A stretch of DNA of 42,480 nucleotides from NCBI GenBank assembly GCA_015228875.1, contig JADGCS010000029.1, positions 1 through 42,480 on the forward strand. Direction: 5' to 3'. A model generated the notes under the pieces. It was not told where the DNA came from, did no database searches, and was given only the letters and a program-made list of their open reading frames with translations. The position numbers and the translations under genes were made by a program. This document shows, piece by piece, positions 17,076 through 41,046 of this stretch (positions within the stretch are counted from its first letter, which is position 1; every line of letters begins with the position of its first letter). The stretch comes from Deltaproteobacteria bacterium. GTDB taxonomy: Bacteria; UBA10199; JADGCS01.

Positions 17076-17361
17076 GCTGTCTCCTTCATAATTAAATCAA
17101 AAAAGTATTTTATACTGAAAACCCACGTCATCGGACCTCGGATACATTTCTGTGATACCGTGTGTTTATTATCGGATGAACCTGTGTCAAGGTTGCTTTT
17201 TTTTTCGCCCAGAATCCGACACTTGACAGAAACGGGAACTCTCCTCAAATCTTCCGCGGATTATTTCGTAGCCATTTAAAACTTGATTGTTTTCGAGCTT
17301 CTTTGATGTTATAGCAACAATAAAATGCATCGAGTGAACACCCTCTCTTGAGGTACAACGC

Positions 17362-18845: not shown

Positions 18846-20804
18846 ACAGGAGTTTCAGAGATAACCAGACAAAAATCGGCGCAGGCCGCGCCAGTCAAGG
18901 GCTAGCTACTTTATAGGGTGTAAGACCCCACCTTGGCCAATCTGATGGCCAAAGGCCTTTAGGACTTCGGCTTGGGTCTTTGTAGGGGTCTCAAGCATAC
19001 GCTCTGGTTTACGAGCGTCCTTGTTCCAAACAAGACAAGAATCCAATGATTGCATCTCTTTCATGGTGAATTTGGCACTCATCTTATTCCCGGCTGCTAA
19101 AAGTTTGCGCTCGATGATTCTCAAATAGGTCAGTGCCACGACACAAGACAGTAGATGACAGCGTATTTTTGAATCAGTCCAATGTCTCATAGGATAAACT
19201 GTTACCAAATCATCATCCTTAGATAACCGAAAATCTTCTTCTACTTCATAACGATCCAAGTACCCCTGCACAATGTCATCAGTCGTCCAGTCGGCATTGT
19301 CTGTAATGATGATGTTTTTACCAAGGGTTTCTGTTTTTTTCTCAACCTCGTAGAGATCTTTACGGAAGCTCAAATTGAGATCACCGTTTTCATAATCAAA
19401 TTCAAGTTGGTAATAATTTGTGGCAACATGATACCTTTGGCAGAGACGAACGTAACGCTCCTCGATAGCCTTTTTATTGCGCCATTGACTATCCTTGTTT
19501 TTGACGTGGGTTCTCATTTCCAACAAGGCTTCTCTAATTTCGCACAGCTTTTTTTCAAATGTATAAGACTGCTTGCGATAGGTCTTTGGATTGTATGTCA
19601 CAACCACCGTCCTGGATTTTCCCCAAAAATCGCCTTTTGTTCTGTAGGCCAACATCTTGTCTTTGCCTTGGTCATCACCTTCCAGAATAACATTTTTATT
19701 GATACCAAGCGGCTCAAACTTTGATATGTTCTCACGGGCGTATTCCTCGGCAAAATAAGGAGAGTAGGACGTGATAAAATGAATCTGCGTGTTTCCATCG
19801 ATAACCTTGAAATTATCATCTGAGTTCATGCCCTTATCAAAAACAACAGTGAGACGTTGTTTGGTATCGCCAAACCCATGAATGACCCCGAACATCTCAT
19901 CCATGATCTGGGCGAACAATTTGGAGTCGTGTGTGCTGCCCTCATAAACGTGATAATACAAAGGCAATCGACTACCGCGCCCCACAAGCAAGGCAAGGCC
20001 AACTTGTCTGAGGTGAGATTTGCCATCCTTGTTTTTCCCCCTCTTGGCTAAGTCTGACTTAGTATGAGTGGCCATAAAGGTGTAATAATTTGTGGTATCA
20101 AACAAAAAACAATCTGATTCTGGTTTTTCGATTTCCCAGACCTTCTTAAAAAACAACTCGCCTATTTTTGTAATGTGCTTGCTATCAACACGATTCCACT
20201 TTTCCCAATAACGTTCACTACTCAGATCCGAAATGGTTGTGGGGCGAATGATCTGGATGGCTGTTTTATTATACCAGTCACATAAAGCACGTTTGGATGT
20301 AGAATCCACCATTCGATTAAAAATGGCATAAACAAAATAATCGCCTACGGACGGGCCTTCTTCTTTTTGACTCCTGGGGATGACCCCATCAACAATACTG
20401 GCAAAATCATATTTTTTATCAACCTCATTGGCTACCCACAAGGCCCCAAACTCCTGGGTTTGAATCTTATCTGGTTTGGATTCTTCGGTAAAAACCTTCA
20501 TGATTTTTTCAGCGGTGCCCAGATAGATCTGGTTGGTGACTTTTGGCTTGCCGTCGATCCGAGCCATCTCTCTGATGTAGTAGTAGGGTCTGCCCTTCTT
20601 GTGCTTGGTGTGTAGGTGGGCCATGCTCCCTTATACACAGTAGGGTCTTACATGTCAAGCATAAAACACGGCTAATGCTTTATTTTTAACGATTTAATTG
20701 ATTTTTAATTAAATTTTTGAAGGGTCTTACAGATAGGCGTCATGGAAGGTGTTGAAAGTTCAGACTTTTTTCTGAATTTTGAGGCTTAACTCTGAAACTC
20801 CTGT
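18846..20804 (-). mobile_element. IS1634-like insertion sequence (about 1.96 kb)
   Basis: The single transposase gene is enclosed by a perfect 15-bp inverted repeat: ACAGGAGTTTCAGAG at 18846-18860 and its complement at 20790-20804, with some similarity continuing inward. The total of 1959 bp fits the IS1634 family. A TGTAAGACCC motif recurs just inside both ends (near 18918, 20645 and 20731), possibly transposase-binding sites. I see no target duplication, so the exact ends are uncertain. Confidence 0.6.
18906..20624 (-). CDS. IS1634 family DDE transposase
   Basis: This 572-residue protein carries the DDE catalytic triad in the usual spacing: D176 in LFDTTNYYTF, D263 in VVFDKGMNSDD, and E462 in LDRYEVEEDF. 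The N-terminus (RPYYYIREMARIDGKP) is typical of IS1634-type transposases. The frame is complete, so the element may still be active. The C-terminal codons run into the left-end motif TGTAAGACCC, as in compact insertion sequences. Confidence 0.9.
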   Translation of the reverse strand: MAHLHTKHKKGRPYYYIREMARIDGKPKVTNQIYLGTAEKIMKVFTEESKPDKIQTQEFGALWVANEVDKKYDFASIVDGVIPRSQKEEGPSVGDYFVYAIFNRMVDSTSKRALCDWYNKTAIQIIRPTTISDLSSERYWEKWNRVDSKHITKIGELFFKKVWEIEKPESDCFLFDTTNYYTFMATHTKSDLAKRGKNKDGKSHLRQVGLALLVGRGSRLPLYYHVYEGSTHDSKLFAQIMDEMFGVIHGFGDTKQRLTVVFDKGMNSDDNFKVIDGNTQIHFITSYSPYFAEEYARENISKFEPLGINKNVILEGDDQGKDKMLAYRTKGDFWGKSRTVVVTYNPKTYRKQSYTFEKKLCEIREALLEMRTHVKNKDSQWRNKKAIEERYVRLCQRYHVATNYYQLEFDYENGDLNLSFRKDLYEVEKKTETLGKNIIITDNADWTTDDIVQGYLDRYEVEEDFRLSKDDDLVTVYPMRHWTDSKIRCHLLSCVVALTYLRIIERKLLAAGNKMSAKFTMKEMQSLDSCLVWNKDARKPERMLETPTKTQAEVLKAFGHQIGQGGVLHPIK

Positions 20805-32692: not shown

Positions 32693-32891
32693 AGTGTCTG
32701 TCGGGAAATACCGCTTTTCGTCATTGCGAGGAGTAAAACGACGAAGCAATCTCCCGCAACCAATTGATTTCAGGAGATCGCCACGTGGGCGCGCAGCGTT
32801 AGACATGACCCCGTCATGTCCACCGCAACGCACCGCTCGCGATGACGATTCGCTTGTTTTACGTCAAAACAGGGGCTTTCCCGACAGACTC
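32693..32891. mobile_element. 199-bp MITE-like palindromic element
   Basis: The ends are inverted repeats (AGTGTCTGTCGGGAAA on the left, and GAGTCTGTCGGGAAAG read from the right), flanked by TAAAT on both sides (32688-32692, 32892-32896). Inside are CGTCATTGCGAGG, paired with CTCGCGATGACG near 32837-32848, which resembles a widespread bacterial palindromic repeat, and a perfect hairpin GACATGAC/GTCATGTC. It lies between two convergent genes. Confidence 0.7.
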
Positions 32892-33974: not shown

Positions 33975-35426
33975 ATGCAAACTATTTTTTCAGGACAACC
34001 AGCCATCAGACAACTCTATCCCGCCGGTGTAGTGCACCCTGCCAATTATTGTGCAGAAGCTCAAAATTTTTCTCGGGGAGACACCACGGGTGGTGATCTG
34101 GTACGCTTGGATGGCAGGGGGCTTGTTGCCCTTTCAAGAGGAGATGTTGTCATCTGCCGTCAATCAGAAGTCAGCCAACACCAGGACATGGTCCGTTATC
34201 TTAACACGCTGGGCGTTTCTTCGTTAAGACCCAGAGATGTGTTTGGTGTCGAAGACAGAGAAGCCTCCACTCCAGTGTGTCAAACAACCGCCAGCTTGCT
34301 CCAACAAGATCGCGCTTCAATACAAGCGGTCAGGGCCATGATCAATGGGGCCAGGCATATGGTCCCCTTTATTGCCTCCGATGCCTCCATTCAGATTGCG
34401 TCCCATTTTAAACTGGATGGAACTCAATCATCACAAGCTGTAGACCTTGCCAACAATAAAGGGGCGCTTTCGCACGGCGCACAGCAGTTTGGTTTTTTAA
34501 CTCCACCCACCACCAGACCAAAAAACCTTGCGCAAGCACAAGAGCAATTTGAGCATCTTTTACACTTAGCCGATCAGTACCCCACAATTTACGATAACAA
34601 GGTTTGGCTCAAACTCAACCGATCATCGGGTGGCGAAGGTGTCATGGCCTTTTCAGACATCGACGCATTTTTATCTTTTTTAACTCAAGATCATAACCCG
34701 CATAAATCGGAAAACACTACGCGGGCGGACACCATACAAAAATTGATGCCGAAAGGCGTAGAAAAAACCTTCCAAGGTTCCAAAGGCCTTGGTTTTTACA
34801 ATTCCATGGTGGATCAAGGTGAATACGAAGGCGTTGTTCTCCAAATCGGGGGCAAGGCCAGAGCTCATGAACCTGTTCCAAACATCAATTTTTTTGTTGG
34901 AGCATCACCCTCCGAAGACCGTTATATCGGGGCCTCTGCCCAGGTGATTGAAAAGGATTCCATCCATGTTGGAAACCAGGGTCTCTCAAATCAAAATGAC
35001 CACAATAGTTTTTTACCGGTCATCCAAAAAGTCGCTCATTGGTTAAGATCTCTTGGTTTTAGGGGAATCTGCGGCATTGATGCTGTGATCAGCCCCCAGG
35101 GAGACATCTGGGTCATTGATATCAATGCACGTTGGAATGCAAGCACCTCTACGCTCATGACCTTTAACAATCTGCGTCACCTGCCTGGTGTTGAAACCTT
35201 TAGATACGCTGGAAAAATCCGTGTACCCCAAGGCACAGGGATGCATGCGTTTACACGATGGCTCGATTTACAAAAAATCAACTTCACCCCAGGTCGTGGT
35301 GGAGTGATCCCTATAAATCTGATGCCAGCGCAAGATGCCGATCATCCTGTGATCAATGCCGCAATCCTGGGCCCTGATTCACAGACCGTGAGTGAGTACT
35401 TTGATTTGGCGCATATGCGTCCTTAA
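33975..35426 (+). CDS. ATP-grasp carboxylate-amine ligase-like protein
   Basis: This protein of 483 residues has an ATP-grasp core: KLNRSSGGEGV (about 211-221) as the glycine-rich nucleotide loop, GICGIDAV and then DINARWNAS (about 381-389) with the metal-binding Asn. ATP-grasp enzymes join a carboxylate to an amine via an acyl-phosphate; the PGM1-type peptide ligases are the nearest I can suggest, with low certainty. The frame opens earlier at 33891, but that part is the 83-bp repeat, so ATG 33975 is preferred. Residues of about 240-270 are the in-frame inserted element. It may act on amino acids handled by the adjacent transporter. Confidence 0.7.
   Translation: MQTIFSGQPAIRQLYPAGVVHPANYCAEAQNFSRGDTTGGDLVRLDGRGLVALSRGDVVICRQSEVSQHQDMVRYLNTLGVSSLRPRDVFGVEDREASTPVCQTTASLLQQDRASIQAVRAMINGARHMVPFIASDASIQIASHFKLDGTQSSQAVDLANNKGALSHGAQQFGFLTPPTTRPKNLAQAQEQFEHLLHLADQYPTIYDNKVWLKLNRSSGGEGVMAFSDIDAFLSFLTQDHNPHKSENTTRADTIQKLMPKGVEKTFQGSKGLGFYNSMVDQGEYEGVVLQIGGKARAHEPVPNINFFVGASPSEDRYIGASAQVIEKDSIHVGNQGLSNQNDHNSFLPVIQKVAHWLRSLGFRGICGIDAVISPQGDIWVIDINARWNASTSTLMTFNNLRHLPGVETFRYAGKIRVPQGTGMHAFTRWLDLQKINFTPGRGGVIPINLMPAQDADHPVINAAILGPDSQTVSEYFDLAHMRP
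34691..34784 (+). repeat. 94-bp intragenic palindromic element, copy 1
   Basis: This copy is 94 % identical (6 differences) to 36915-37008 and lies in the same reading frame relative to its host, coding for a peptide with the core ENTTRADT and VEKTFQGSK. CTACGC/GCGTAG arms enclose the middle, and AACCTT/AAGGTT forms a short terminal hairpin. It lies between a helical segment and the next conserved part of the ATP-grasp protein, as expected of a tolerated loop insertion. Confidence 0.88.
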
Positions 35427-35454
35427 ATCATACCCACGTGTTGCAGAATCTAGG

Positions 35455-35603
35455 AGCCTGTCGGACAATACCTGTTTCGGAGGAGTCCTGAAAAATCATG
35501 TCCCGTGATAAAACGTACAGACATGATTTTTCAGGGTTTGAAATATTTTGCAAGCGGCAAAATTTTCAAACTTCCGGAGAAACAGGTATTGTCCGACAGG
35601 CTC
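35455..35603. mobile_element. 149-bp MITE, copy 1
   Basis: The perfect 24-bp terminal inverted repeat starts AGCCTGTCGGACAATACC. The element is flanked by CTAGG at 35450-35454 and 35604-35608. Inside are two more hairpins: CCTGAAAAATCATGTC (35487-35502) paired with 35520-35535, and TTTGAAAT-ATTTTGC paired with its complement around 35552-35556. The whole folds as a three-stem structure. It lies between the ATP-grasp gene and the 612-residue gene. Confidence 0.88.
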
Positions 35604-35694
35604 CTAGGGAAAAAACGCACAACTTTCAAATCCCCCAAACGAGAATGGGTATGCACGTTTAAAATAAGAAATAACAGATTATTTAAAGACAACC

Positions 35695-37533
35695 ATGATA
35701 GGCACACCACAATTAATTTTTGGCCACTTGACCTCACTGCTCCCCTGGTGTGGCCCACTTGCCGCACCACCAGCCCTGCCTGCAACTACGCTTTTGCCAA
35801 GATCAACGATTTCAGCACAAGCCTCTTTGCAAACGGCCAGTTCATACCTCTCATCAGCAGCAACAACCGTGCACACTGCTTTGCCTGCTTTTGCCACAGA
35901 TCATCCTGTCTTGACAGGAGTGGCTGTGTCCCTGGCTGGTTACGCACTTTATAAAAATTATCAAGCTGCACCCAATAAGAACCCCCCAAAACAAATTGAA
36001 CCAGGCATCCCTCAAACAACAGATGCGTATCAAGAACACTTTGACAAACTCTCAAGTCTTAAATCACAGCTCTTAAAAGCACCTGAAGAAAAAATCCCAG
36101 GGCATTACGCAGAGATTCAAAAAACGATCCTGGAACAAGTTGCTGTTTACGAAGAACAAGCCCAGGCTCTTTCCAAACAGATTCATGACTTCAAATCTGT
36201 AAGTCCCTTCACTCCTGACAGGCAATCCTTACTGATCAGCAAGGTAGAAACAAGAAAAGATATTTTTAGGGCCTTTCAAAAGGATGTGACCTTCTTAAAT
36301 GACCTTATGTCTCTGTGGGGCGTGCGACAAGTCGTTGATGCAGAAAAGGTCATGCGTCAAATTGAAGAGCGCTATTTCAACCTCGAAAACAACAAGCTTA
36401 AATTGATTCCCATGTATGGATATAATTTTCTGAACTCGATGTGCTCGGTTATGGGTGCCCTTGTGATGATCAGCGCTTTGAATGCAGGTTTGCCTGCTCT
36501 CTTTCACGACACGTTTCCAGAAGTCATAAATACGGTGGCCGAGCCACATGCCCACATGACAACCGGTGCGCTCATCAATTTTTTTAAGCAGATGACATTT
36601 TTTGGAATTGCTTTTGATGCCGTGTATGCCGGGACAAAAGGCATGCGATGCCGTAACACCACAGCCGCACCAGCGAGGGCTTGGAACAAAGTCCTGGACA
36701 CAGCAGGTAAAATAGCGAGCATCCCTTCGCCTGTTTTTAACATGATCAACGGGGCCTTGCACGCGGCGCTTGGCAAGCCCTGGGATGTGGTCACACGATA
36801 TGCCTATCGCGCCGCAACACTGGGGGCCATGGGTGTTGTACGTCAAATCGGACAGGACCTTGAATTTAGTTTGAATGATATTGCGAGTTCTTGTGTCACA
36901 AAAATTTTTAAAACTCATAACCCGCATCAAGCGGAAAACACTACGCGGGCGGACACCATGCAAAAATTGATTCCGAAACGCGTAGAAAAAACCTTCCAAG
37001 GTTCTAAACAAGTCAGACCCTTTGGGAATGTTGGGGATGTCTCTATTGGTCTTCTTGTTGGTGGAATCTTTGATTGGTCAGTAGGAATTATCGAAAACGT
37101 GATGCAGAATATCATAGTCAAAACATCAGCAGGATCCCTTTCTTCAAAGGTTGGCGCTGCGTTGCAGAATCCTTTTGCACTGATCTGGCATAATGCCGCC
37201 CCCACTGCCGCCTGCAACGTTCTTCATTCCAACGCCACAGCGCGGGTATCACAATTTGCGGGCAATGATGATATTGATGTTGTGATGAGCCGATTTGCCC
37301 TGGGTGTTATTAAAGGGAGCCTCCTCACGGCCCTGATCACAAACGCCGCTATTAATGGAAGTTCTCCAGCGGCAACGGCCATCTACCTCACAGCTCAACT
37401 GTTCATTGGTGCAAACAGTATCCTCTTGTCAAAAGCCATGACAAACCCGGCATTGCGATCAAAGGTCTCTCGCTTGATGTCCCGGATCAAGCAAGGGGGA
37501 AAAGGGGTCAAACCTTTACTATTACCTTTTTGA
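35695..37533 (+). CDS. membrane protein of unknown function (612 aa)
   Basis: I do not recognise this protein. The N-terminus is Pro/Ala/Thr/Ser-rich without a clean signal peptide. Hydrophobic segments are seen at about 71-88, 245-270, 295-315, 440-460 and near 540-580, and a charged helical stretch lies between 105 and 230. Residues of about 408-438 are the second copy of the in-frame element. The last residues (KGVKPLLLPF) are encoded by the dispersed repeat shared with 18797, so the original C-terminus was probably altered. Position after the ATP-grasp gene may mean a shared function. Confidence 0.6.
   Translation: MIGTPQLIFGHLTSLLPWCGPLAAPPALPATTLLPRSTISAQASLQTASSYLSSAATTVHTALPAFATDHPVLTGVAVSLAGYALYKNYQAAPNKNPPKQIEPGIPQTTDAYQEHFDKLSSLKSQLLKAPEEKIPGHYAEIQKTILEQVAVYEEQAQALSKQIHDFKSVSPFTPDRQSLLISKVETRKDIFRAFQKDVTFLNDLMSLWGVRQVVDAEKVMRQIEERYFNLENNKLKLIPMYGYNFLNSMCSVMGALVMISALNAGLPALFHDTFPEVINTVAEPHAHMTTGALINFFKQMTFFGIAFDAVYAGTKGMRCRNTTAAPARAWNKVLDTAGKIASIPSPVFNMINGALHAALGKPWDVVTRYAYRAATLGAMGVVRQIGQDLEFSLNDIASSCVTKIFKTHNPHQAENTTRADTMQKLIPKRVEKTFQGSKQVRPFGNVGDVSIGLLVGGIFDWSVGIIENVMQNIIVKTSAGSLSSKVGAALQNPFALIWHNAAPTAACNVLHSNATARVSQFAGNDDIDVVMSRFALGVIKGSLLTALITNAAINGSSPAATAIYLTAQLFIGANSILLSKAMTNPALRSKVSRLMSRIKQGGKGVKPLLLPF
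36915..37008 (+). repeat. 94-bp intragenic palindromic element, copy 2
   Basis: This copy has perfect CTACGCG/CGCGTAG arms and the same terminal AACCTT/AAGGTT hairpin as copy 1. It is in frame in a protein unrelated to the ATP-grasp ligase. Four of the six differences from copy 1 change the amino acid conservatively or mildly, and none creates a stop. Confidence 0.88.
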
Positions 37534-37960
37534 TTTTTTTCATTGACGTTGCCCCCTTTGCCCGTTCTTTAATCATCATCAGCACATCATCAGCACATGG
37601 CGGAGTTCATCAGAATACATGACGGTGTTCATGACATTCCTTAGTGCAAATAGTATCCTCTTATCAAAAGCCACGACTCATCCAAGATTGCGATCAAAGC
37701 TCTCTTGCTTGATGTCCCGGATCAAGCATGTAGAAATGTAGAATAGGGGTAGAACACATAAGAAAACATCAGCATCATTTTATTTTTTTCGTTTTTTATT
37801 CTTGGTTAAAAAAAACCAGAGGAGTATGAAGCAGAACAACTTGTTTATTCATGGATCAATAATACAGCAGCCTGACTACTGCGAGACTGTGTCTGTTTTT
37901 TTTTGGGGGGGGGAAGATCAGACTGAGATAGAAACTACCGCTACAAAATAGTATTTGAAA
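37534..37960. other. 427-bp gap: decayed gene-end copy, homopolymer tract
   Basis: The gap contains a CATCATCAGCA tandem repeat near 37573, a 15-bp dispersed repeat (37601-37615, also 40665-40679), a decayed copy of the preceding gene's 3' end, and a T9G9 tract at 37896-37913. No intact gene is seen. Confidence 0.6.
37644..37728 (+). pseudogene. decayed duplicate of the 3' end of the 612-aa gene
   Basis: 85 bp resemble 37409-37493 inside the membrane-protein gene, at roughly 87 % identity by eye, both ending in GATGTCCCGGATCAAGCA. The rest of the gene is absent. Confidence 0.8.
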
Positions 37961-38908
37961 ATGGAAAACACCATTAGAATGCTTCAATCCAGATTTCAAG
38001 AACGTGGCCTGCAAGGGCGAGTTGTCTCTGTGCGACATCTGCAGGATTTGCGCGACGAGATCGAAGGGCATCATGCGCAAGGTCTTTTGAACGAAGAATT
38101 CTACAAGGAAGCATTGTCGTTTTTTTTGTTCCAAGACCCAGAGAATCTCCCTCATGCCGCTTCTTTGATTGTTGTGGCTGTGCCGCAACCCCAAACCAAG
38201 GTCAGTTTTGCGTACAACGGAAACACACAAACGCTTATACTTCCACCAACCTATCGAGGTTTCAGGGAAACCACCCAACAAGTTCAAAGTCTTTTAACAG
38301 AATGGCTGGCCCCCGATGGATACCACGTTGCTTCGGCCAGACTGCCGCGAAAACTATTGGCTGTACGCAGTGGTCTTGCTGAGTACGGTCGCAATAACAT
38401 TGCCTATATCCCGGGCATGGGAAGTTTTTTTCAACCCACGGTTTTCTTCTCAGATTTGCCTTGTCCGCAAGATACCTGGCACAAATCGCGCATGATGGAC
38501 AGATGCTTAGATTGCCATGTTTGCCTGACCAAATGCCCTACAGGTGCAATTACTGCTGAACGATTTCTTCTCCGCGCTGAGCGGTGTCTGGTCTTTCACA
38601 ATGAAAGGTCAGCGGATCATCCTTTTCCCGACTGGATAGACCCGACCGTACATCATTGTCTGGTAGGTTGCATGTTGTGTCAGCAGTTTTGCCCGGAAGA
38701 CAAGGATTTTCTCAATTGGTTCGAAGGAAACGAGACGTTCGCTCATGAAGAAACGGCGCTCCTTTTAGGCGGTACTTCGCTGAATCAGTTGCCGACTCTA
38801 ACTCAGGAGAAATTAAAGCGACTTGATTTGCTCGATTATCTGGGTGTTCTCCCTCGTAACCTGGGTGTTTTTTTCAAGACCTCTGGACAGGTACGCTTTA
38901 TGCCTTAA
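37961..38908 (+). CDS. QueG-like double [4Fe-4S] cluster protein
   Basis: This protein of 315 residues has two ferredoxin-like cluster motifs: CLDCHVCLTKCP (Cys182, 185, 188, 192) and CLVGCMLCQQFCP (Cys233, 237, 240, 244), preceded by AEYGRNNIAYIPGMG, as in epoxyqueuosine reductase and its relatives. QueG reduces epoxyqueuosine in tRNA with cobalamin; this protein is somewhat divergent and may be a QueG-like reductase of other function. ATG 37961 is preferred over TTG 37955. A T9G9 tract lies 47 nt upstream. Confidence 0.75.
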   Translation: MENTIRMLQSRFQERGLQGRVVSVRHLQDLRDEIEGHHAQGLLNEEFYKEALSFFLFQDPENLPHAASLIVVAVPQPQTKVSFAYNGNTQTLILPPTYRGFRETTQQVQSLLTEWLAPDGYHVASARLPRKLLAVRSGLAEYGRNNIAYIPGMGSFFQPTVFFSDLPCPQDTWHKSRMMDRCLDCHVCLTKCPTGAITAERFLLRAERCLVFHNERSADHPFPDWIDPTVHHCLVGCMLCQQFCPEDKDFLNWFEGNETFAHEETALLLGGTSLNQLPTLTQEKLKRLDLLDYLGVLPRNLGVFFKTSGQVRFMP

Positions 38909-38910
38909 AC

Positions 38911-39033
38911 AAAACTGATAAGGCCCTTGTGCGTGCCAAGACAGAAATGGTGATGGTTTCGGTCTTTAATCTGGCGATTGTAAGAAACGAAAAGCATGAT
39001 GCAGATGGGGCATATGATCTTGTAGAGGGATAA
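38911..39033 (+). pseudogene. C-terminal remnant of a transposase
   Basis: One open frame encodes KALVRAKTEMVMVSVFNLAI and then a stop at 39033, which resembles the C-terminal end of IS1182/IS5-type DDE transposases. It has no start codon. It lies between the Fe-S protein and the cysteine hydrolase. Confidence 0.4.
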
Positions 39034-39079
39034 ACAAGGCATTGTGCTGCCAAGCTGTGCCGCACCAAAGGGGGGATCC

Positions 39080-39664
39080 ATGACGACAGCATTACTTCTC
39101 ATAGACATTCAAAATGATTATTTTAAAAATGGCAGGATGGTTTTGGAGAATAGTGATAGCGCAGCGTTGAACGCAGGCAGATTGCTTTCATTTTTTCGAG
39201 AACACGCATTACCTGTCTTTCATGTTCAGCATCTATCTTTGCGGCAGGGGGCCACATTTTTTATACCTCATACGTCAGGAGCGGAATTTTATAAAGGTGT
39301 CTTGCCAAGCGAAGGAGAAACAGTTGTTCAAAAACACTTTCCCAACAGTTTTCGGGAAACAACGCTGTCAGATCATCTGTTGCACTCGAAGGTTGAAAGG
39401 CTCGTTGTGGCTGGGATGATGACGCACATGTGTGTTGATACCACCGTGCGGGCTGCTGTGGATCTAGGGTTTCAGTGTATCATTGCCCACGATGCCTGTG
39501 CAACACGGGATCTTGTCCTTGGTGACAGGCGAGTTGTAGCCGCAGATGTTCAGACGGCTTTTATGGCCGCCCTTGACGGGGTTTTTGGCAAAGTACTCAC
39601 GGTCGATGAAATTATTTTATTGCTCAATGATGCCTTTGGAATGAAAACACCTTCTTCATCTTGA
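39080..39664 (+). CDS. isochorismatase-family cysteine hydrolase
   Basis: This protein of 194 residues belongs to the isochorismatase-like superfamily of cysteine hydrolases (nicotinamidase, biuret hydrolase, ureidoacrylate hydrolase). The triad is visible: Asp9 in LLIDIQNDY, Lys85 in VVQKHFPNSF, and Cys118 in GMMTHMCVDTT. The typical cis-peptide segment before the Cys is present. Substrate cannot be told. ATG 39080 follows a GGGGGG-rich ribosome-binding region; the frame is open 12 codons earlier without support. Confidence 0.88.
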   Translation: MTTALLLIDIQNDYFKNGRMVLENSDSAALNAGRLLSFFREHALPVFHVQHLSLRQGATFFIPHTSGAEFYKGVLPSEGETVVQKHFPNSFRETTLSDHLLHSKVERLVVAGMMTHMCVDTTVRAAVDLGFQCIIAHDACATRDLVLGDRRVVAADVQTAFMAALDGVFGKVLTVDEIILLLNDAFGMKTPSSS

Positions 39665-39723
39665 GACTGGCAAGTTTATCAGGTGGGCATGTGAGTCCAA
39701 GGTGGTGTAGATTTATGAATAGC

Positions 39724-39832
39724 AATTTCAAAGTCGACAGAGCGCGGGCGCACTCCTCGCAAAATGAAGAAATTCAACCGCGTCCCCCAAGGGGATTTCC
39801 TTCGGGGCATCAAAGTCAAGTTAGTAACTTGT
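39724..39832 (+). repeat. 83-bp palindromic repeat, copy D, with 27-bp insertion
   Basis: This copy carries an extra 27 bp after the CCGCGTC arm (39784-39810), itself a small dyad (CCCCAAGGGG and CCTTCGGGG). It ends 3 nt before the ATG at 39836 of the ACT-VOC gene. Confidence 0.85.
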
Positions 39833-39835
39833 GAA

Positions 39836-40663
39836 ATGGTGAAAAAAATGACCGCAGAAACAGATTTGACAACCCTTATTGCCTTAATGCATCCCGTCTT
39901 GCACCCTGATACATTCGTGTTTGCGACTCTGCCAGACTCAAAACGTGCGACACTCACAGTGTCACCCATCATGGAATTTTGCGAGGCCGAAGGGGTGACT
40001 GTTGTTGTGCGTGAGCAAGAGGCCAAGCAGGCTGAAATTGATTATCAGTACCCATGCCGGATGATTACGCTCAATGTTCATTCCGATCTTAATGCTGTTG
40101 GTTTTATGGCGCGCATAAGCACGGTCCTGGCCGAGGCGGGAATCAGTCTGAATGCTGTTTCTGCATTTTACCACGATCACCTGTTTGTTCCTGCAAACAG
40201 GGCAGAGGAGGCTGTGTTGTTACTCAACAGGTTACGACAAGAACCATGTCCTTACAGTCAGACAGCCCACTTTATTTTGTACGTGAAAGACCAGACTATC
40301 AGCACCGAATTTTATACAAGGGTCCTCGGATGTGTACCACGTCTCGATGTGCCTGGCATGACGGAGTTCGCATTGTCCGGCGGTGCAGTGTTGGGACTGA
40401 TGCCCGTCTCGGGGATCAAACGACTTCTGGGTGATAAACTTCCCAATCCAGAAGCAGTGCGGGGGGTTCCCTGCGCCGAACTTTATCTTGTTGTTGACAA
40501 TGCAACTGTCTTTCATCAACGGACCCTTGCCGCAGGTGGGCGAGAACTCAGTCCTGTTACAACTCGTGACTGGGGCCATGTTGCTGGTTACTGTCTTGAT
40601 CCCGATGGCCATGTTGTTGCATTTGCGAATGCCCTTGAAAAAAAGGTCGGCAAGAACACATGA
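39836..40663 (+). CDS. ACT-like domain fused to a VOC (glyoxalase) domain
   Basis: This protein of 275 residues has two parts. Residues 1-130 look like the COG3602-type ACT-related family: TDLTTLIALMHPVLHP, then FVFATLPD, MITLNVHSDLNAVGF, VLAEAGISLNAV and YHDHLFVP. Residues 140-265 form a VOC domain: ILYVKDQTISTEFYTRVLG, FALSGGAVLGLMP and CLDPDGHVVAFA. The fusion suggests ligand sensing coupled to a small-molecule enzyme or resistance-type activity. ATG 39836 or 39848 is the start; the frame open back to 39764 is the repeat. Confidence 0.75.
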   Translation: MVKKMTAETDLTTLIALMHPVLHPDTFVFATLPDSKRATLTVSPIMEFCEAEGVTVVVREQEAKQAEIDYQYPCRMITLNVHSDLNAVGFMARISTVLAEAGISLNAVSAFYHDHLFVPANRAEEAVLLLNRLRQEPCPYSQTAHFILYVKDQTISTEFYTRVLGCVPRLDVPGMTEFALSGGAVLGLMPVSGIKRLLGDKLPNPEAVRGVPCAELYLVVDNATVFHQRTLAAGGRELSPVTTRDWGHVAGYCLDPDGHVVAFANALEKKVGKNT

Positions 40664-40695
40664 TCGGAGTTCATCAGAACACTTCATTGGCTGGG

Positions 40696-40844
40696 AGCCT
40701 GTCGGACAACTCCTGTTTCGGAGGAGTCCTGAAAAATAATGTCCCGTGACAAAACATAAAGACATGATTTTTTAGGGTTTGAAATATTTTGCAAGCGGCA
40801 AAATTTTCAAACTTCCGGAGAAACAGGAGTTGTCCGACAGGTTC
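40696..40844. mobile_element. 149-bp MITE, copy 2
   Basis: Same length as copy 1, flanked by CTGGG at 40691-40695 and 40845-40849. The terminal inverted repeat starts AGCCTGTCGGACAACTCC. Compared with copy 1, ATA is replaced by CTC-type bases in the left arm and the right arm has changed to match. The two inner hairpins are kept in position. Confidence 0.88.
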
Positions 40845-40940
40845 CTGGGCAACAGTCAGTGAAATAAAGGAAAAACAGTTCACCCAAATAATTCAACACA
40901 CCGACACTCAAATTGTCTTGTCTTGTAATTCAATGTATAG

Positions 40941-41023
40941 GAATATCAAAGTCGACAGAGCGCGGGTGCATTCCTCGCAAAATGAAGGAATTCAACCGCG
41001 TCAAAGTCAAGTTAGTAACTTGT
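40941..41023 (+). repeat. 83-bp palindromic repeat, copy E
   Basis: This copy pairs ATTCCT with AGGAAT and GCGGGTG with CAACCGC around the loop. It ends 23 nt before the rimO start and follows MITE copy 2 by under 100 bp. Confidence 0.9.
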
Positions 41024-41046
41024 AAAATTTTAAAGCGTGGTCCCTC

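Follow-up and report, generated by a model that had tools for sequence, protein, structure and literature searches.

The window, a 42,480-nucleotide stretch of the Deltaproteobacteria bacterium genome (contig JADGCS010000029.1), contains two copies of a short palindromic element whose terminal arms differ in a concerted way: AATACC/GGTATT in copy 1 corresponds to AACTCC/GGAGTT in copy 2. A preliminary description had attributed these paired differences, which are borne out here, to selection or gene conversion acting on the folded structure. This locus raises the question of how both arms of a mobile palindrome come to change together, and whether its fold is selected at all.

Both copies are present where the preliminary description had placed them, with 92% identity and a gap-free alignment of copy 2 to copy 1. 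Their limits, given as 149 bp with 5-bp duplications (CTAGG and CTGGG), had to be revised, and the copies are best described as 150-bp elements with a 4-bp target duplication, CTAG in copy 1 and CTGG in copy 2:

35450–35453, unstranded: left target duplication CTAG of copy 1 (sequence)
35454–35603, + strand: MITE copy 1, type A ends, 150 bp (sequence, comparison with family)
35454–35478, + strand: left outer arm of copy 1, GAGCCTGTCGGACAATACCTGTTTC, variant TA at spacer (predicted fold)
35487–35535, + strand: hairpin 1 of copy 1, 16-bp stem, conserved loop (predicted fold, alignment)
35536–35571, + strand: hairpin 2 of copy 1, 15-bp stem, one bulge, loop AAGCG (predicted fold, alignment)
35579–35603, + strand: right outer arm of copy 1, GAAACAGGTATTGTCCGACAGGCTC (predicted fold)
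35604–35607, unstranded: right target duplication CTAG of copy 1 (sequence)
40691–40694, unstranded: left target duplication CTGG of copy 2 (sequence)
40695–40844, + strand: MITE copy 2, type A ends, 150 bp (sequence, comparison with family)
40728–40776, + strand: hairpin 1 of copy 2 (alignment to copy 1)
40777–40812, + strand: hairpin 2 of copy 2 (alignment to copy 1)
40845–40848, unstranded: right target duplication CTGG of copy 2 (sequence)

The duplication is called 4 bp rather than 5 because the next right-hand base varies among the type A copies of the family (G in 9 of 21) and because an unoccupied site is available. This site lies in a copy of another repeat, on the minus strand near 17221 (...ttatatCTAGgaATTTCAAAG), which matches its occupied counterpart at locus L003. 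The pre-insertion site in the window reads TTATATCTAGGAATTTC, while L003 reads ...TTATAT CTAG, the MITE, and CTAG GAATTTCAAA, with the element between two CTAG. Most type A copies have a CTAG on either side. For type A overall, 63 of 84 bases match in the duplication test, against a shuffled mean of 59.9, and a true duplication cannot be separated statistically by shuffling from a target preference for CTAG.

Copy 1 is predicted to fold into a 25-bp closing stem (35454–35478 with 35579–35603) and two hairpins with stems of 16 and 15 bp, recovering the three-stem structure noted earlier. Its folding z-scores against shuffled sequences are −15.7 as DNA and −16.3 as RNA, with no shuffle equally stable, and an Rfam scan of the window returned nothing at gathering score. 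Copy 2 carries the majority arm sequence, AACTCC/GGAGTT, together with three stem changes that affect one arm only and have stayed uncorrected, one in the right arm (GGTTCC) and two in hairpin 1 (ATAATG and TTTTTTAGG); therefore, not all changes are paired.

The census of copies that the preliminary description had called for yielded 59 core matches at 59 distinct sites in the genome, 48 of them with both arms. Complete copies are mostly 150–152 bp long and mainly intergenic, and in most of them each arm of the terminal inverted repeats has at least about 18 matching bases. The core is almost invariant between copies and is common to two end types whose arms differ. Type A (GAGCCTGTCGGACAACTCC) accounts for 17 complete copies at CTAG-like sites, and L017, sorted under type B by the script yet with type A arms, is one further A-armed copy. 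Type B (GTGTCTGTCGGGAAATGCCC, with the end GTGTCTGTCGGGAAA) comprises about 30 copies with a 6-bp duplication, TANNTA, in which 238 of 336 bases match (shuffled mean 179.6, maximum 197). One copy, L010, resembles a type A left arm joined to a right arm like that of L019.

Type B ends also enclose unrelated cores, chiefly a ATTGCGAG palindrome that is itself also found without such ends. The window holds one element of this kind:

32694–32891, + strand: third element, type B ends GTGTCTGTCGGGAAA...TTTCCCGACAGACTC around the unrelated ATTGCGAG palindrome core, TAAATA on both sides

The genome is also rich in nearly empty palindromes, solo ends and truncated copies. Together with the shared ends on several cores, these remnants give the picture of a MITE population with common ends. 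The element is best explained as a non-autonomous, protein-less MITE of a new family, being short and dispersed, with inverted repeats and a target duplication.

No insertion sequence with these ends, which the preliminary description had proposed to look for, was found in the assembly or in relatives, with the proviso that the assembly is in 228 contigs and such an element could have fallen into a gap between contigs or sit in another strain. A genome-wide search for type A and type B ends with up to three mismatches, followed by inspection of about 40 loci, gave no pair around a transposase gene (for type B, among the 100 of 122 matches listed), and the DDE_Tnp_1 and rve transposase loci of the genome lack such ends. 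The IS1634-family insertion sequence at 18846–20804, with a 571-aa transposase typed by NCBIfam, is likewise mobile and lies on the same contig, but it was rejected as a partner, its 19-bp ends (ACAGGAGTTTCAGAGATAA) being unrelated to those of the MITE. The family was not found at E ≤ 0.001 in any of 59 further genomes (45 from the same class), apart from a single 21-bp match in one genome (E 6e-4) judged to be chance after locus inspection; an exact 27-base core piece had no match in a scan of named genomes. The family looks young and local, given the absence of a transposase element with such ends and of relatives in those 59 genomes.

Other repeats accompany the MITEs in the window. The one with the unoccupied site belongs to a many-copy family (..TAGGAATTTCAAAGTCGACAGAGCGCGG..CAAGTTAGTAACTTG) found at 39728–39837, 40941–41028, about 10699 (+) and 17221 (−); L003 and L006 are MITE copies at its CTAG edge, and in L088 and L121 it is nested within the loop of hairpin 1. 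At 34691–34784 and 36915–37008 lies a repeat of about 92 bp, with at least 40 genome copies that are 92–97% identical. Its two copies here lie within adjacent ORFs and share a reading frame, so that each protein gains HNPH..ENTTRADT.QKL.PK.VEKTFQGSK, and we take the repeat to resemble the in-frame palindromic repeats of Rickettsia. The 3' part of the ORF at 35695–37533 (37402–37493) is duplicated just downstream, at 37637–37728 (92 bp, 86% identical).

Covariation between the arms was assessed pair by pair, with the alignment anchored on the almost invariant CTGTTTC and GAAACAG. In the 48 complete copies, 19 double changes were paired, where about 1.3 would be expected from independent arms, and three were unpaired. 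Type A (17 copies, counted without L019, whose arms are one base longer) showed 10 paired doubles and 8 singles, with 0.64 doubles expected; type B (29 copies, excluding spacer pairs 3 and 4) showed 6 paired and 1 unpaired double and 18 singles, with 0.50 expected. The inner stems (44 copies, 38 pairs) gave 3 paired and 2 unpaired doubles and 19 singles, against an expectation of 0.12. In the full alignment, 67 cells were changed on both sides, compared with 25.6 after shuffling (none of 500 shuffles reached 67) and 2–15 with slid partners, although this figure partly reflects the split into types A and B, and more weight belongs to the counts within each type. Covariation is strong in all outer stems and in one inner stem. 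Concerted arm change is thus real and general across the family, at a level far above chance.

Most of the paired changes occur in a single copy, as in L001 (where they occupy adjacent positions), L014, L016, L017, L025 and L061, and further in L064, L068, L076, L084 and L086. The fact that they are private, while the core is nearly unchanged, indicates recent and largely independent events. In L121, the hairpin-2 loop is inverted (CGCCT, where the inverse of AAGCG is CGCTT) and the stem bulge is gone, this being the only inverted loop found. L056 has lost exactly the bulge base of hairpin 2, so that its first arm is fully complementary to its second.

Type B ends show where such rewriting falls short. 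Variation is greatest in the two spacer bases that separate GTGTCTGTCGGGAAA from CCCTGTTT, chiefly in the right arm, and about half of the copies are mismatched there. The same spacer mismatch (TG on the left, GC on the right) has been kept by many type B copies across several transpositions; therefore, correction is occasional and inefficient. In L084 the left spacer appears rewritten to match the common right spacer, and in L025, L026 and L072 the right spacer matches the common left one, the direction of rewriting being presumed in each case. CCCTGTTT comes after the ends also where these enclose other cores; the type B end is therefore likely a transposase site of two blocks, with a free spacer between them. 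At the junctions, type B copies with the two-hairpin core (for example L056, L057, L075 and L118) often have TANNGA on the left and TANNTA on the right; over all type B elements, G occupies the left junction base in 21 of 56 and T the right one in 49 of 56, and the ATTGCGAG-core copies mostly have TA at both junctions.

If templates are switched within a palindrome, the arms should become homogenised, with changes in short tracts of several bases and now and then an inverted loop; loop inversion and arm homogenisation have been described as footprints of the process (PMC8794818, PMC8604942, PMC7202029). The family, with its ends and duplications, carries private paired changes in excess of independent mutation, and these probably arose by intra-palindrome template switching (quasipalindrome correction) in a recently spread MITE, with no need of selection for the fold. 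We infer that the agent is template switching at replication rather than another hairpin-based repair. According to this model, the MITE would have spread recently in one lineage, inserting mostly between genes, presumably mobilised by a transposase acting in trans. Each copy is one long palindrome, in which a closing stem encloses two hairpins. If one arm suffers a point mutation, the growing strand may at times fold back and be templated by the other arm, which would either erase the mutation or put its complement in the other arm. Over many copies, private, paired and multi-base arm changes could accumulate without selection for the fold. Against the model count the spacer mismatches that many type B copies have retained, the failure of the searches in the assembly and in relatives to find an autonomous element with these ends, and the fact that only one inverted loop was found.

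Given this footprint, the conversion half of the preliminary description is supported, by the private pairs, the inverted loop and the corrected bulge, and the selection half is not. Convergence of the arms within individual copies, which that description had counted against its own reading, was in fact seen. Were a fold under selection, uncompensated changes should be few and intermediates should be wobble pairs; an RNA should also keep a fixed orientation. A functional fold, whether in RNA (through transcript stability or processing, for example) or in DNA as a cruciform, with selection purging single changes and keeping compensated ones, would account for the strong covariation in all outer stems and one inner stem, the very stable predicted structure and the mainly intergenic location. 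However, unpaired changed cells outnumber paired ones (45 of 67 changed stem cells are unpaired singles) and are of neutral-looking types, half of them non-wobble: 14 are G–T, 9 A–C and 22 other. The wobble preference is not significant (G–T versus A–C, p = 0.40), and the slight surplus of G–T is compatible with a weak RNA effect. Orientation relative to co-directional genes is unbiased, with 15 copies one way and 18 the other. The missing Rfam match in the window, the abundance of solo ends and truncated copies and the absence of the family from the other genomes, bar the one chance match, also make a selected fold improbable.

Alternatively, the ends could be renewed at transposition, with a hairpin or single-strand intermediate copying one end onto the other so that pairs arise on insertion. 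The private nature of the paired changes fits this proposal, as do the intact duplications of some of the copies concerned (L001, CTAG/CTAG). It is nevertheless unlikely: mismatched type B spacers outlast many transpositions, paired changes also occur in inner hairpin stems, beyond the ends, and direct duplications suit ordinary DDE-type insertion. Quite unlikely, too, is a coupling of arm renewal to transposition in which the moving element folds back on itself and one end serves as template for its partner; on an unchanged core, the ends could then switch as a matched pair, and the preferred target (CTAG versus TANNTA) with them.

It is very improbable that the paired states come only from the shuffling of a few old matched subfamilies, by recombination among copies or element types sharing ends. 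Types A and B do share a core under different arms, type B ends do surround other cores, and the seemingly composite L010 points the same way, but the pairs unique to L025, L061, L064 and L068 are without a donor among the sampled two-hairpin copies. An assembly artefact was dismissed by reasoning, as graph merging would make rare arms more like the common one and has no way of producing private pairs.

Covarying base pairs are usually taken as proof of functional structure. Strong covariation combined with neutral-looking mismatches in dozens of nearly identical copies of a mobile palindrome suggests that mutation alone may suffice, a caution for RNA-structure discovery, and the family offers a natural data set for rates of arm correction in bacteria. 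A literature search covering few subscription journals found no work tying template switching to bacterial MITEs, which speaks only weakly for novelty.

The family resembles known bacterial MITEs (Correia/NEMIS, ERIC/IRU, RUP and RPE; PMC2229807) in its length of 100–200 bp, the absence of a protein, the terminal inverted repeats and duplications, the many intergenic copies and the stable stem-loop fold. Unlike them, it combines one core with two end types of different target lengths and shows clear arm-to-arm correction, and its sequence, to judge by the lack of an Rfam match, is unrelated to theirs. The homogenised arms, multi-base changes and loop inversion are shared with quasipalindrome template-switch mutation in E. 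coli (PMC7202029) and hairpin switching in RNA genes (PMC8794818). Whereas those studies used a reporter and an RNA gene, here the deduction rests on about 48 naturally occurring copies of a single mobile palindrome; the process itself is a known mutational one, here with unusually clear natural evidence.
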